From a virus, in the IMG/VR virus record IMGVR_UViG_3300037261_000049, positions 1-28,426 of that record: DNA of 28,426 nt. One strand, given 5' to 3'. Positions 1-22,484 of the stretch are shown one piece after another (the stretch's first letter is position 1; every line of letters starts with the position of its first letter). The notes under the pieces are model-generated. The model did not search any database. It saw nothing but the letters and a program-made list of their open reading frames with translations, and was not told the origin of the DNA. The translations under genes and the position numbers were made by a program.

Positions 1-337
1 TAGGAGGGTCTTCCGCTAACGCTCCAGGGTTGTTAGGTTCTGCTATTGCTTCAGTATCAATAGGCTCTGCAATTGACACTGTGATAGGTTCCTTGCCGTC
101 GTAGCGGTTGATGACAAGCGTATCTATTGACACTTGGGCCGTATCCGTCTTAGGCATGTTGGCAACGTATGGCACCATTTTCACAAGCAATTGAGCCATA
201 GATAGGGCTGTATGGTTTCCCTTGGCCGCTTTCTCTAGGAACCCTGTTAGCATCTTCTCATAATCATAGCCATTCTTAGCTAATGATTCTAACAGCCATA
301 CACTCTTTTTATTCTTACTACCAACAGGACGGGCCAT
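1..337 (-). CDS. Putative terminase small subunit / DNA-binding protein (partial)
   Basis: Leftward reading frame that runs off the left edge of the window. The 112 visible codons start MARPVGSKNKKSVWLLESLA, followed by a helical-looking region and an acidic, proline-containing tail. The short basic N-terminus of the type 'ARPxGSKNK' is common in phage small-terminase and similar DNA-binding proteins, and the position at the head of a leftward unit fits packaging genes. A GGAGAG ribosome site lies about 10 bases before the ATG. No catalytic motif is visible and the HTH is not obvious, so the terminase label is an inference from N-terminus and position. Confidence 0.5.
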   Translation of the reverse strand, partial: MARPVGSKNKKSVWLLESLAKNGYDYEKMLTGFLEKAAKGNHTALSMAQLLVKMVPYVANMPKTDTAQVSIDTLVINRYDGKEPITVSIAEPIDTEAIAEPNNPGALAEDPP

Positions 338-520: not shown

Positions 521-554
521 TGAGAAGCAAACGGGTTTTGCACATTCACATAGT

Positions 555-785
555 TGTAGCCAACATCTGTTGTTCGTTAGGCTTATGGGGATTTCATCCC
601 CCGCCGTACTCACTCTTCGTCCCCGTGAGGGGACTCAGTAAACCTAACGGTAAACGGACGTAAGTAGGCACGAAGATGTTATAGTCAGATCCCCATTAAA
701 GATCTGCCGATGTTTTACCGGGCTAAGCTTCAATAGCTTATCTGGCTGGAAACGGGAGGTTATCTTAGTTCCTCGGTCCCTTGTT
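555..785 (+). ncRNA. Predicted structured noncoding RNA with pseudoknot
   Basis: This gene-free stretch pairs with itself repeatedly on the + strand. Perfect stems are 576-581/643-648 (GTTAGG/CCTAAC), enclosing two hairpins: 587-592/596-601 (GGGGAT/ATCCCC) and 619-624/629-634 (GTCCCC/GGGGAC), the latter capped by a GTGA tetraloop of the GNRA type and extended by 607-610/637-640. Next come 649-654/714-719 (GGTAAA/TTTACC), 686-691/701-706 (CAGATC/GATCTG) and 724-729/735-740 (TAAGCT/AGCTTA). A 7-bp pairing, 562-568/674-680 (AACATCT/AGATGTT), interleaves with 649-654/714-719 and so makes a pseudoknot. GNRA on this strand favours + transcription. It does not fit tRNA, tmRNA or RNase P; the group I intron topology was considered, but P6 is absent. 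Ends and function are unknown. Confidence 0.6.
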
Positions 786-823
786 TACATTGAACAATAC
801 GTCTATATGTCTTTCCATAAGTA

Positions 824-9383: not shown

Positions 9384-9450
9384 AAAACGATACGAAAATA
9401 CAGTCTAATATGACTATCTTGTGATCAAAGACGGTGGTAGAAGGAAGAAC

Positions 9451-9933
9451 ATGAGTAATTACGGTCCAGACATGACACCAGCAATGAAAGCAGCTCTTGA
9501 AAAAGAGATTGCGGCTTTCGATAAGAATAAAACGTTGGCTGAAATAGAACGTGAATCTGTCAGTAAACAAAATGATCCTGGATATAGTGAATGGATTGCT
9601 CAACATGGAGAATTCTTCCATCAAGACCGATTAGATGATGTTCGAAAGTATGGTACGTTCTTAGAAGCAGAGCCCGATTTACTCTCAGAAGATGAAGCCG
9701 TAAACTTAACCAAACCTGACCTGCCTGACTATCTTGTTAAGGCTAAACAGGAAATTGACGACCTTCTTTCACACCGAGAGCTTCAAGTTTGGCGTCTAGT
9801 GATGCGGCAAGGAATGACACATGAGAAGGCAGCTAGTCTACTGCATGTTGGTGTTGGGTCGATACGAACGTATCTCCAACGAGCAAAGGCAAAGATAGAG
9901 AAGCATTTTAATCGAGGAGATACACATGAATAA
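9451..9933 (+). CDS. Sigma-region-4-like HTH transcription regulator
   Basis: 160 residues. The C-terminal HTH at about 106-150 (LSHRELQVWRLVMRQGMTHE, then AASLLHVGVGSIRTYLQRAKAKIEKH) closely follows sigma-70 region 4 / LuxR-like layout, where the GSIRTYL helix would contact DNA. The N-terminal half is acidic and lacks region 2, so it is not a complete sigma factor. ArpU-like late regulators in phages have this kind of domain. ATG 9451 was preferred over GTG 9421 because AGAAGGAAG precedes it. A switch to late transcription is a reasonable but untested role. Confidence 0.7.
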   Translation: MSNYGPDMTPAMKAALEKEIAAFDKNKTLAEIERESVSKQNDPGYSEWIAQHGEFFHQDRLDDVRKYGTFLEAEPDLLSEDEAVNLTKPDLPDYLVKAKQEIDDLLSHRELQVWRLVMRQGMTHEKAASLLHVGVGSIRTYLQRAKAKIEKHFNRGDTHE

Positions 9934-12128: not shown

Positions 12129-12670
12129 ACACACCGTACTCAGGGGTGATGGTTGATTTGGAAGCAATGTCAACCGATTCTGATGCAGCTATTATCTCAA
12201 TCGGAGCTGTGAAGTTCTGGATCAATGTCAAACAGGAAACATTCACAGAGGATCAACTATTCTATACAGCCGTTAGTCTCAAGAGCAGCCAAGAAGCAGG
12301 ACTTCATATAAAAGCCGATACTGTGCTATGGTGGATGAAACAAGGGCCTGAAGCACGTAACGCCTTTAAGAATCCTGTATCTCTCGTTAGTGCCTTGAAT
12401 GCATTCAGTAGGTTTGTGCCGAAGGATGCTTTTCTCTTCGGAAATGGCGCAAACTACGACAATGTTGTTTTGAGGAATGCGTATAAAGCTGTGAATGTTG
12501 CGTATCCTATATCGTACAAACGAGATGTCTGCTATCGTACTATGTGCAAACTTGACGATGATCCTCCCCCGGCGTTTAAGGGAACGAAGCACAATGCACT
12601 TGATGACGCGTTTTGCCAAACTAGACACCTTATGTGTATCCTTGAAAAAGTGCCATGGGTACGCTTTTAG
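12125..12670 (+). CDS. DEDDh 3'-5' exonuclease (Rv2179c-like)
   Basis: 181 residues. MVDLEAMS places D11 and E13; FGNGANYDNVVL gives D112; and HNALDDA gives H156 and D161, the HxxxxD of DEDDh exonucleases. Sequence flavour (SIGAVKFW...LWWMKQGPEAR) is that of the Rv2179c-like / DnaQ-like group often found in phages. ATGA overlap with the nuclease gene. Substrate may be RNA or DNA; because the polymerase has its own proofreading domain, a separate role such as RNA or end trimming is likely. Confidence 0.85.
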   Translation: MNTPYSGVMVDLEAMSTDSDAAIISIGAVKFWINVKQETFTEDQLFYTAVSLKSSQEAGLHIKADTVLWWMKQGPEARNAFKNPVSLVSALNAFSRFVPKDAFLFGNGANYDNVVLRNAYKAVNVAYPISYKRDVCYRTMCKLDDDPPPAFKGTKHNALDDAFCQTRHLMCILEKVPWVRF

Positions 12671-12673
12671 CCC

Positions 12674-12702
12674 TTGACAAACTTGATTCTATATGTTATA
12701 CT
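12674..12702 (+). promoter_or_regulatory. Strong sigma70 promoter at the primase-helicase gene
   Basis: TTGACA (12674-12679), 17 bases, TG at 12694-12695 and TATACT (12697-12702). It overlaps the end of the upstream exonuclease region. The expected transcription start (about 12709) is only about 6 bases before the ATG at 12715, so mRNA from it would be nearly leaderless, while readthrough mRNA keeps the AGAGGA site. Confidence 0.75.
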
Positions 12703-12714
12703 CTAGAGGAACAC

Positions 12715-14475
12715 ATGGAACTGCTCGAAAATCAAGTACGCGCCTTATACCGTCTTCTAGGGCATGGAGATAATCCGAATGGGTATTCTGACTGTCGTTG
12801 TATTATTCCTGATGGTAGCGATATTCTTGTTACAGACGCTAATCAATCGAAGATGGTTAATAGATCTATCATTAAAGGTGAATCATCTGTCATTGAATGG
12901 GCACGACGCTATAATGGACAAGGGAATTGCTATATTGGACGGAGCGCCAGGGCGTCCGATGGTGCTTTGCTTGAATTTAGAACGATCACAGCAGATATTG
13001 ACCCAAATAGAGAGCACGGTACAGCAGCGACGTTGGAACTCTCTGCCACCGCTATACATGGAGCTAGGGCAGTATTGCAGCATTTTAGAGGGGGATACGT
13101 TGCCTCTAGCGGTAATGGTGCCCTTATTATTTATAGATTGCAGAATCCTGTTACAGCAGACTTTAAGGCCTTTGAAGCAAAGTATAAGCTATTTGAAGAC
13201 GAAATGCGTAAGGTGCTTCCATCGGGGGTTACATTAGATGCAACGTTTGACACTGCACGGTTGGTTAAGTTATTGGGAACGGTCAGTACCAAAGGTAATA
13301 GAGCTAATTGGCGACACTCCCGATTCCTTGACTTTCCTATACTTCCATATAAACGAAACGATATTTTGGAAGGAGTGGAATCATGTAGTGCAGTGGTTAA
13401 AAATCTCTCACTATCGAACTTCACCAATACGGTTTACAAGTCTCGTAGTGAATCCGACTTCGCCTTGGCAGTTCACTATAAAAAAGCAGGTCTTGGGAAA
13501 GAAGATACCCTTAAGGCTCTTAAAACTCATGCGCTGGGACGTAATGACAGAACAGATGACCATGAACGCATCTGTGCCAAAGTCTTTGATAAAGGAATAT
13601 CAGAACCTATTGAACAAGGCTTGCAATATTCGCAACCAGGAGATAACCTTGATGCCCATAGAGAAAGACTCTTTAACCGTAAAAGCCAAGACAAACCAGA
13701 ACTCAGTATCGGAGTCGAACTTATCGACCGTCTCACCTGGGGCCTTAGACGCGGAGAGGTCTTCACAATCGCCGCTCGCCCTTCAATTGGAAAAACTTCA
13801 ATTGCTGTCGCAGTTGCTGCAAGAATGGCGAGAGAGGGCAAGCGAGTGCTATTCTTCACTTCCGAAATGTCTACTGACACAACCTACGATAGACTCCTTC
13901 AAGTTTTATCAGGCGTTCCAGGAGATAAATTTAATACTGGGGACTTTACTGACGAAGAACGATCTATGCTTGATGAAGCTTACGAGGAACTTAAACGGTT
14001 TGGAGAACTGCTTACAATCTGTGATAGCACTTCTCCAGATATCCAACAAGTCACAAGAATTGCTAACAAAGTTGCCCCCGACCTTGTAATCTATGACCAC
14101 ATTCAACACATCGGTGGTGCGAGTGACAGCGCAAGAGATAATGTATCAAAGTTCATGCGGGGTCTCAAAGATATCGCTCGTTCTCTTGGCTGTGCTGTAC
14201 TGGCTCTTAGTCAAATTAGACGCTTGTATCGGGACATCAAAACAGGAAAAGAAATGCGGCCTTCTCTAAGTGATCTCAAGGAGAGTGGTACAATTGAGGA
14301 AGAGAGTGGAGCGGTGCTGCTCCTTAGCATCTTGTCGGATGAGCCCGAAAATCCTATACGATGCTTATATTCTGAACTTGCGAAGAATAGATACGGGCCT
14401 TTGGCAATTATAGGGATAGAAATGAATAAGCTTACAGCGTCGTTCAAGAATATGGAAGGAGAACCAGTAGCGTGA
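12715..14475 (+). CDS. AEP-type primase fused to DnaB-like helicase
   Basis: 586 residues from ATG 12715 (AGAGGA upstream; a start at 12655 would run through the promoter). The N-terminal part has primase-polymerase marks: ITADIDPN with D94/D96, GGYVASSGNGALIIYRL, and ARLVKLLGTVSTKGN resembling the third AEP motif. The C-terminal part is a RecA-like DnaB helicase: ARPSIGKTS Walker A (K about 360), LFFTSEMS, LVIYDHIQHI Walker B (about 458-467), ALSQIRR and DLKESGTIEEESGAVL. It would unwind the fork and lay primers, replacing host DnaB/DnaG. T7 gp4 is analogous, but its primase is TOPRIM, not AEP. Helicase call is certain; primase call is good but the family is divergent. Confidence 0.85.
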   Translation: MELLENQVRALYRLLGHGDNPNGYSDCRCIIPDGSDILVTDANQSKMVNRSIIKGESSVIEWARRYNGQGNCYIGRSARASDGALLEFRTITADIDPNREHGTAATLELSATAIHGARAVLQHFRGGYVASSGNGALIIYRLQNPVTADFKAFEAKYKLFEDEMRKVLPSGVTLDATFDTARLVKLLGTVSTKGNRANWRHSRFLDFPILPYKRNDILEGVESCSAVVKNLSLSNFTNTVYKSRSESDFALAVHYKKAGLGKEDTLKALKTHALGRNDRTDDHERICAKVFDKGISEPIEQGLQYSQPGDNLDAHRERLFNRKSQDKPELSIGVELIDRLTWGLRRGEVFTIAARPSIGKTSIAVAVAARMAREGKRVLFFTSEMSTDTTYDRLLQVLSGVPGDKFNTGDFTDEERSMLDEAYEELKRFGELLTICDSTSPDIQQVTRIANKVAPDLVIYDHIQHIGGASDSARDNVSKFMRGLKDIARSLGCAVLALSQIRRLYRDIKTGKEMRPSLSDLKESGTIEEESGAVLLLSILSDEPENPIRCLYSELAKNRYGPLAIIGIEMNKLTASFKNMEGEPVA

Positions 14476-21132: not shown

Positions 21133-21656
21133 AAGTACTCATGACGGATTTTGACGGCGTGTTAAATAGTGAAGCCAGTTTCCATATGGAAATACGTCGA
21201 AAGACGCTACATGTTTCTAATACTCTGTCAGTAGTGGCCTGTTCCAATCTTCAGTACATTCTTGATCAAGATCCAGAGATAAAGATAGTCATATCTTCCA
21301 CATGGCGTAAGATACACACGATGCAGGAACTGAAGAACATTCTTAATTCTTACGGAGTGAATCCGGCTAGAGTGATTGATAAGACTCCCTCCGTCTTTAG
21401 CGGAAATCGAGCCCATGAGATTAACTTATGGCTGGAAGAACATCCTGGGGATCATGTAGTGGTAATTTTAGATGATGACAACGATGTGCTTGGTGTAACA
21501 GATAAACGTTGTCATGTGTTCCAGACCACTTGGGAAGATGGATTGCTCTTTAAACAAGCTAAAATGATAAGTAAACTATTCCGTGAAGCATCAGAACCCC
21601 TTCCAGGGTGGACCGCAGACGGTGTGACGTATACTTCAAAGCAACCAGGAGTTTAA
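21129..21656 (+). CDS. HAD phosphatase of the RNA-repair (SAK) type
   Basis: 175 residues. MTDFDGVLNS gives the nucleophile D7 and D9; IVISSTWRKIH is motif II; NRAHEINLWLEEHPGDH and VVILDDDND are later HAD motifs. The order matches 'HAD domain in Swiss Army Knife RNA repair proteins', where it removes end phosphates. The start overlaps the ligase stop (ATGA), so they are co-made. Likely cleans 3' phosphates or cyclic phosphates before ligation; exact end chemistry is not visible. Confidence 0.8.
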   Translation: MKVLMTDFDGVLNSEASFHMEIRRKTLHVSNTLSVVACSNLQYILDQDPEIKIVISSTWRKIHTMQELKNILNSYGVNPARVIDKTPSVFSGNRAHEINLWLEEHPGDHVVVILDDDNDVLGVTDKRCHVFQTTWEDGLLFKQAKMISKLFREASEPLPGWTADGVTYTSKQPGV

Positions 21657-21657
21657 A

Positions 21658-21858
21658 ATGAAACGATTCCTATTCGGCGTTATCTTTGGTATTATAATCT
21701 TGTCACCTACATACCTGTATGTTTATAGCAAAGGTATGGTGGATGGGGTAGCGCATTACAGGCGCAGTGATAATTTCAAGTTGACCTTATTCAGTATGTT
21801 TGTGGCAGGTGTGCATGAAGCGTGTAGGCATCTGTATGAGTGCGGGGGGACTAGATGA
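21658..21858 (+). CDS. Small membrane protein
   Basis: 66 residues: KRFLFGVIFGIIILSPTYLYV, one membrane span or signal anchor at about 3-23, then a soluble tail with HEACRHLYECGG. Overlaps the protease gene by ATGA, so they may be made together at the envelope. Unknown function. Confidence 0.6.
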   Translation: MKRFLFGVIFGIIILSPTYLYVYSKGMVDGVAHYRRSDNFKLTLFSMFVAGVHEACRHLYECGGTR

Positions 21859-22484
21859 AAAGAGAAGCGATACTCATAGGCGGTGTTTTGGCCTTTCTAG
21901 TGGCTGGATTTCAGTCATGTTTTGGCGTATCCCCCGAAAGGATATACAAAGAGGCTAACTCGAAGGTGGTAATGATACATACGATTACGGCTACTGGCGG
22001 CGGAGAATGTAGTGGAGAGTTTATATCCAAAAATGGAAACGTTTTAACGTGCGCCCATTGTTTCGAGCACACGCCGAAGAAGATCTTTGTGAAGGATGCA
22101 GAAGGGATGGTATCAATCGGGAAAATAATAAAGATAGACCAGCGGTCAGACTTAGCTCTTTTGGATACACGTTTCGAGCGTAGACCCTACTTTAAGTTAG
22201 GGAGGGGGGTTAAAGTGGGGCAACAAGTATTCGCGCTAGGTTCCCCGTTAGGAATTCAAAACACAATGTCTGTAGGATGGGTTGAAAATACGCGTACGGA
22301 GTCTAGGCGGATTATTCTACATAGTGCCTTTATTAATCCAGGCAATAGCGGGGGTCCGCTAGTAGACACACACGGTAGGCTAGTAGGGGTTAATGAGGCT
22401 ATCATTATGGAGAATATACTACAGGCCGCACAAGCTCTGTATATAGCTATTGATGGCTCTGAGGTAAAGGAGTTCCTACGTTGA
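21855..22484 (+). CDS. Exported trypsin-like serine protease (DegP/HtrA type)
   Basis: 209 residues. The hydrophobic N-terminus at 5-24 (AILIGGVLAFLVAGFQSCFG) looks like a signal peptide. The catalytic triad is plain: H68 in VLTCAHCF, D99 in RSDLALLD and S165 in NPGNSGGPLVD, with GSPLG at 129-133. It lacks PDZ domains, so it is a single-domain S1C-type protease. It would act outside the cytoplasmic membrane, perhaps on envelope, receptor or lysis proteins. Unusual cargo for a phage replication arm. Codon flavour resembles the 3-7 kb segment rather than its direct upstream neighbours. Confidence 0.85.
   Translation: MKREAILIGGVLAFLVAGFQSCFGVSPERIYKEANSKVVMIHTITATGGGECSGEFISKNGNVLTCAHCFEHTPKKIFVKDAEGMVSIGKIIKIDQRSDLALLDTRFERRPYFKLGRGVKVGQQVFALGSPLGIQNTMSVGWVENTRTESRRIILHSAFINPGNSGGPLVDTHGRLVGVNEAIIMENILQAAQALYIAIDGSEVKEFLR

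Follow-up and report, generated by a model that had tools for sequence, protein, structure and literature searches.

A probable structured RNA, and possible late leader, upstream of a TerS-like gene in an uncultured phage

Known systems and the setting of the locus

N-dependent anti-termination in lambdoid phages makes use of nut sites, promoter-proximal RNA elements whose hairpin differs between related phages. In lambda-type nut sites, boxA and boxB go together with a cognate N protein. HK022 put RNA works via the zinc-binding domain of the RNA polymerase beta' subunit, with no phage protein involved. The packaging RNA of phi29, a phage without TerS, forms a ring on the portal and is encoded near an end or the packaging module; its sequence is variable and its structure is kept. 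The available text of PMC9378689 describes HK022 put as an element of about 70 nt with two stem-loops, found downstream of a phage promoter in two copies per phage and able to act on terminators at distances of 10 kb or more; it lies in early operons, and its two copies, putL and putR, resemble each other in sequence. In phiEco32, according to the available text of PMC8948821, the gp36 sigma factor uses the element tAATGTAtA, with transcription starting 6-8 bp downstream.

The locus described here occupies positions 555-785 of a 28,426-base virus record from IMG/VR (the window, i.e. the whole stretch analysed), between a minus-strand gene at 2-337 on the left and plus-strand genes on the right. 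The minus strand of this region very probably encodes a real structured RNA. Its apparent compact two-hairpin core (H2+H3, 57-63 nt in four phages), with a nearby promoter that is predicted from sequence boxes, may be comparable to HK022 put. Unlike put, which is early, present in two copies and similar in sequence between them, the RNA here heads a late arm, is single and is hypervariable. A covariance model (R2) run over 23.5-34.5 kb of HK022, where put presumably lies, gave a best match no better than E 4.3. The likeness to lambdoid nut is judged from position only. The phages here differ from phi29 in encoding a TerS-like protein, and the RNA has no Rfam match. The boxes resemble tAATGTAtA of the middle/late promoters read by the phiEco32 gp36 sigma; in the available text of PMC8948821, which mentions no structured RNA, six such promoters stand upstream of different genes, whereas the phages here have two neighbouring copies of the box. 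The RNA is in a known kind of place, is uncatalogued and is not classed as a member of put or nut. Searches of the open-access literature for a structured RNA upstream of terminase, a packaging RNA alongside TerS or a structured late leader returned nothing matching. Our preferred reading, to which we assign a probability of roughly 0.4, is that the RNA is the leader of a long late transcription unit and a cis-acting anti-termination or anti-pausing element of the nut or put kind.

Two genes of the window are of particular relevance:

2-337, minus strand: TerS-like gene, the first gene downstream of the RNA; its 3′ end is cut by the window edge
9421-9933, plus strand: sigma-70 region 4 protein, putative reader of the late promoter box described below

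Neither Pfam nor PHROG gave a match for the gene at 2-337 itself, which is called TerS-like because its homologue in relatives precedes the genes for the terminase large subunit and portal. The plus-strand genes to the right of the region encode an amidoligase, a class II glutamine amidotransferase, the sigma-70 region 4 protein, a DnaB-like helicase and a family A DNA polymerase. The sigma-like protein has a 39% relative in record G002 and a weak partial one in record G004; no relative was found in 7/9 records searched, including the near-full-length G003. In an annotated phage collection the best terminase and portal matches were approximately 22-27% identical and every match was below 60%, and no close cultured relative of the phage group was found there. 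Searches of genome contigs with TerL and portal returned no relative, and when 340-1060 was compared by distant blastn with 50,697 phage records, only short chance matches came up. The DnaB-like gene (12655-14475, plus strand) contains two long alternative-frame ORFs, 12764-13237 and 13238-14089 (157 and 283 aa), both in one frame.

The point of divergence of the two arms, with its A+T-rich flank at about 800-1050, would also be a suitable place for a replication-origin RNA, serving as a primer or forming an R-loop. We consider this very unlikely, given that gene direction explains the change in GC skew and that 337-1060 contains only a few short direct repeats, of which a promoter-like pair on the plus strand is the best. 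The earlier note on this DNA had offered control of an early/late switch or an origin-linked RNA as an inference; the position found is the head of the late arm. The plus-strand pair itself (906-923 and 1019-1036, copies of CTTGACAAATA..TAAT that are 89% alike) is likely to represent sigma-70 type early promoters in tandem, reading into the right arm.

Folding and hairpins of the probable minus-strand RNA

The complementarities first reported for the region are present: 562-568 and 674-680 form a perfect 7-bp pairing, and 649-654 pairs perfectly with 714-719 (7 bp when taken as 648-654/714-720). Perfect helices of at least 6 bp number 10, vs 4.8 in 500 dinucleotide shuffles (2.6% of which reach 10), those of at least 7 bp number 5 vs 1.2 (0.6%), and crossing 7x6 helix combinations number 12 vs 1.5 (0.6%). 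As mutually exclusive helices are included, these counts show excess complementarity and not one structure. A pseudoknot had been built on the crossing pair 648-654/714-720; this pair has nothing comparative behind it and no support beyond complementarity, and the pseudoknot was dropped. Inspection by eye also led to the dropping of hammerhead, K-turn, 11-nt tetraloop receptor and group I core, Rfam being the tool-based test. Rfam 15 returned no match at gathering score in the window, with chance-level matches only below it, and none in eight relative loci, and ARAGORN found no tRNA or tmRNA in the window.

Relatives were found in IMG/VR by searches with TerS, TerL, portal and amidotransferase, yielding eight other loci with around 1 kb of sequence upstream of TerS: L003 (also L002 and L004), L005, L008, L009, L010, L012, L013 and L023. 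A G+C-rich segment of 137-173 nt lies upstream of TerS in seven of these eight. The exception, L005 (one of the nine TerS loci), has TerS and 1.1 kb upstream, in which neither such a segment (by eye) nor a convincing model match was found. For the eight segments, window included, the TerS strand has folding z-scores of -1.13 to -3.54 and the other strand -1.33 to -3.19, as compared with -2.77 to +1.44 for flanking stretches. The segments are therefore fold-prone, and folding alone does not separate the strands across loci. For the window region itself, the minus strand folds better than all shuffles (z -3.24, 0/200 as good), and the plus strand, where the RNA had first been placed, is only weakly better (z -1.63, 11/200 as good).

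The elements recognised on the minus strand are:

571-613, minus strand: H3 unit with flanks GTGAG ... AAC, the sole match of covariance model R1 in the window (17.7 bits, E 0.0031)
576-609, minus strand: outer stem of H3, GTAcGGC/GCCTaAC, with junction ATAA to the inner hairpin
587-601, minus strand: inner hairpin of H3, GGGGAT-GAA-ATCCCC (587-592/596-601), pair probability 0.85
615-638, minus strand: H2 hairpin with tandem G-A steps, CT-GA-GTCCCC(TCAC)GGGGAC-GA-AG, directly before H3, pair probability 0.99
562-680, minus strand: possible closing stem, AACATCT (680-674)/AGATGTT (568-562), a perfect 7 bp enclosing H2+H3, pair probability 0.77
686-740, minus strand: 5′ part with three more local hairpins (740-724, about 722-708 and 706-686), no counterpart shown in relatives

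The H3 unit was defined from L003, L008 and L023, which share G[AT]GAG, a 6-bp outer stem, a hairpin of the GGG..GAA..CCC type, a junction whose last base is A, the second arm of the stem and G[TC]AACC. In their alignment of 12 pairs all cells are paired (36/36) and 5 pairs carry double changes; 3/500 shuffles were as good and slid controls were 40-58% paired. Covariance model R1 was trained on these three loci only, with the window left out, although the choice of H3 was not blind: an identity of 14 nt between the inner hairpins of L003 and the window, in syntenic place, had been noticed beforehand. Across 19 sources (233,473 bases), the window gave the best R1 match outside the training phages, in syntenic place and strand (E 0.026, covariance-model E-values being rough), followed by L026 (14.4 bits, E 0.27). 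Among 19 whole virus records, six had a match at E <=1, one each, comprising the three training phage types (three of the records being of the L003 type) and G005, where the match is weak. With the window added, 48/48 cells are paired, 9 cells show double changes and 0/500 shuffles were as good, in an alignment that was fitted to the structure. The stems were misregistered when MAFFT was applied to the full set of seven H3 units or to H2+H3; these alignments were left out of the counts, as was one of four H3 units.

Other loci are matched weakly or not at all. A second covariance model found L009 at the expected position with E 0.078, the best value among L009, L010, L012 and L013, while its match to L010 (in L059) had E 0.72; neither L012 (in L033) nor L013 was found at the expected place. 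More distant relatives (L027, L048, L049 and L051) gave no convincing model match. In the window, the outer H3 stem requires two 1-nt bulges and has a pair probability of 0.005, single-sequence folding preferring a competing stem (TACTTAC/GTGAGTA), and enforcing H2+H3 costs approximately 9 kcal/mol (-62.2 vs a minimum of -71.5). The helix of 562-568 with 674-680 could be the closing stem of the domain; helices enclosing the hairpins are also found in other segments, and these are not alignable with it.

In H2, GA stands on either side of a hairpin (AA and GA in L003), and more pairs follow. A descriptor of this layout matched 6/8 segments on the TerS strand and 1/8 on the other, against a mean of 0.31 and a maximum of 3 in 300 dinucleotide-shuffle sets; it was drawn, as was that for H3, after the sequences had been seen. 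The first H3 descriptor matched 5/8 segments in place, missed the window, L012 and L013, and gave one antisense match in L012. A slightly stricter form of H2 has 37 matches in 466,946 strand-bases of the 19 sources and, in both strands of the window, a single one, at 615-638 minus, adjoining H3. The linker between H2 and H3 is 4-5 nt in the four phages that share the core (L003, L008, L023 and the window) and longer in L010 (22 nt) and L012 (18 nt). The strand-specific H2 signal and the R1 match are the main grounds for assigning the RNA to the minus strand. With this assignment a GNRA loop falls away: the 6-bp stem 619-624/629-634 exists and encloses GTGA on the plus strand, and the minus strand reads TCAC.

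Could all of this be chance complementarity in a G+C-richer spacer, with an accidental hairpin similarity to other phages? The E-values are rough, the H2 and H3 descriptors are post hoc, and the 14-nt match to L003 was seen before H3 was chosen. Taken together, the helix excess, the covariation in H3, the R1 matches, and the strand bias of H2 with its single match in the window make this explanation, already disfavoured, highly improbable. The claim that the divergent control region holds a new structured RNA is supported by covariation in relatives, by the match of a model built without the window and by the lack of an Rfam family, with the RNA moved from the plus strand to the minus strand.

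Variation among relatives

The segment varies greatly even between close relatives. L008 and L013 come from one metagenome and have very similar TerS; many flanking 50-nt windows are 72-100% identical, vs 26-52% across the RNA. This applies to the stretch from about -860 to 0 before TerS. With flanks alike and the RNA divergent, the RNA and its neighbourhood look either exchanged as a cassette or very fast-evolving. Letters that change fast while the shape is kept would fit an RNA recognised by a phage partner that changes just as fast. No reading frame is conserved over the RNA, the longest ORFs having at most 73 codons and varying in strand and place among loci. A search of viral contigs for the hairpin pattern GGGGATGAAATCCC-N0-3-TAAG returned six stretches, three from the L002-L004 phage type and three in unrelated contexts. 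Between the RNA and the second promoter-like box, L012, L013, L008 and L023 have a conserved box, GCACGCGC..AGCT....GT.....CCCGTC, and among the viral contigs searched only these four carry it.

The region adjoins TerS and is co-oriented with the packaging genes, which raises the question of whether it is a packaging element, either a pac- or cos-type TerS site or a pRNA-like RNA, with the hairpins serving as DNA landmarks or motor parts. Record IMGVR_UViG_3300006162_000016 lacks, between its two ends, exactly L033:3711-4701, an interval of 991 bases that holds both promoter-like boxes, the RNA and TerS; both flanks are 100% identical in the two records. However, L033 and others read through this interval, so variable sequence may have caused the contig break during assembly. 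Moreover, the strand-specific G-A steps suggest an RNA, a TerS-like gene is present, unlike in phi29-type phages, and no Rfam match was obtained. We therefore regard a packaging role as distinctly unlikely.

Promoter-like boxes and the late arm

In relatives, one promoter-like box lies just before the RNA (P1) and a second before TerS (P2). In the 58.8-kb relative G003, GGGACCTATATAGTGTA occurs twice with 0 mismatches and nowhere else within 3 mismatches. The 58.1-kb relative G002 has a different box, likewise present twice with 0 mismatches and with no other occurrence within 3. One copy precedes the RNA and the other TerS in both. The boxes of L008, L012 and L013 resemble the phiEco32 gp36-sigma element tAATGTAtA. 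In the window, the candidates are:

784-792, minus strand: candidate late promoter box P1, CAATGTAAA, resembling tAATGTAtA and placed like P1 of the relatives
539-547, minus strand: weak candidate P2, GAATGTGCA, about 200 nt before TerS, chosen by eye after the P1/P2 pairs of the relatives

Loose matches to tAATGTAtA number 15 in the window, CAATGTAAA at 792 minus being one of them, and the P2 assignment is only a guess. Transcription from P1 would start at about 778-776.

All ORFs of at least 100 codons between 13.4 and 40.0 kb of G003 run in one direction but one (21,625-22,281), and P1, the RNA and P2 head this late-gene block of approximately 27 kb. The convergent early arm is preceded by a strong terminator-like site at 40,654, and two weaker ones lie inside the late arm (15,080 and 25,997). 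No terminator-like site was found on the TerS strand within around 1 kb upstream of TerS in any of the nine loci.

On the preferred reading, the minus strand of 555-785 would encode the structured 5′ leader of a late transcript that starts at about 778 and runs towards TerS and then the genes for packaging and structure. Transcription from P1 would be by RNA polymerase with a phage sigma factor, and the leader would act in cis on that same polymerase, as nut or put do, so that two adjacent promoters could serve the late arm of some 27 kb. A cis effect on elongation is favoured since a unit of this length, read from two adjacent promoters, would gain by it, and since a similar-sized promoter-proximal two-hairpin RNA, put, is known to have one. 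Against this, one would expect more sequence conservation in an element whose only partner is the host polymerase, and the second promoter-like box after the RNA means that the late genes could be read without it.

The main rival is that P1 serves the RNA alone, giving a separate late small RNA, perhaps after processing, that acts in trans against a defence system or on targets of the host or the phage, with TerS read from its own promoter P2. The placing of one box before the RNA and another before TerS suits this, as does the contrast between flanks and RNA in L008 and L013, which looks like cassette exchange. Against it, no terminator-like site was seen after the RNA in 9/9 loci, and we consider the explanation possible but doubtful. 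A more specific form of the leader reading is a new class of leader RNA that modifies RNA polymerase where the late operon of about 27 kb begins, either by itself or together with a phage partner that co-evolves with it, its recognition being swapped as a cassette so that each late RNA works only with its own factors; this we hold to be unlikely.

If the leader reading is true, the RNA represents an uncatalogued family in a phage group for which no close cultured relative was found, and a small RNA sited where the whole late programme could be decided. With its kept shape, fast-changing letters and twin boxes, it would offer a case in which co-evolution between an RNA signal and a transcription factor of the phage can be tested. 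As regards the extent of the genomes compared, the DNA polymerase gene of G002 (the record behind L010) is split over both contig ends with overlapping residues, and this 58-kb contig therefore probably closes.
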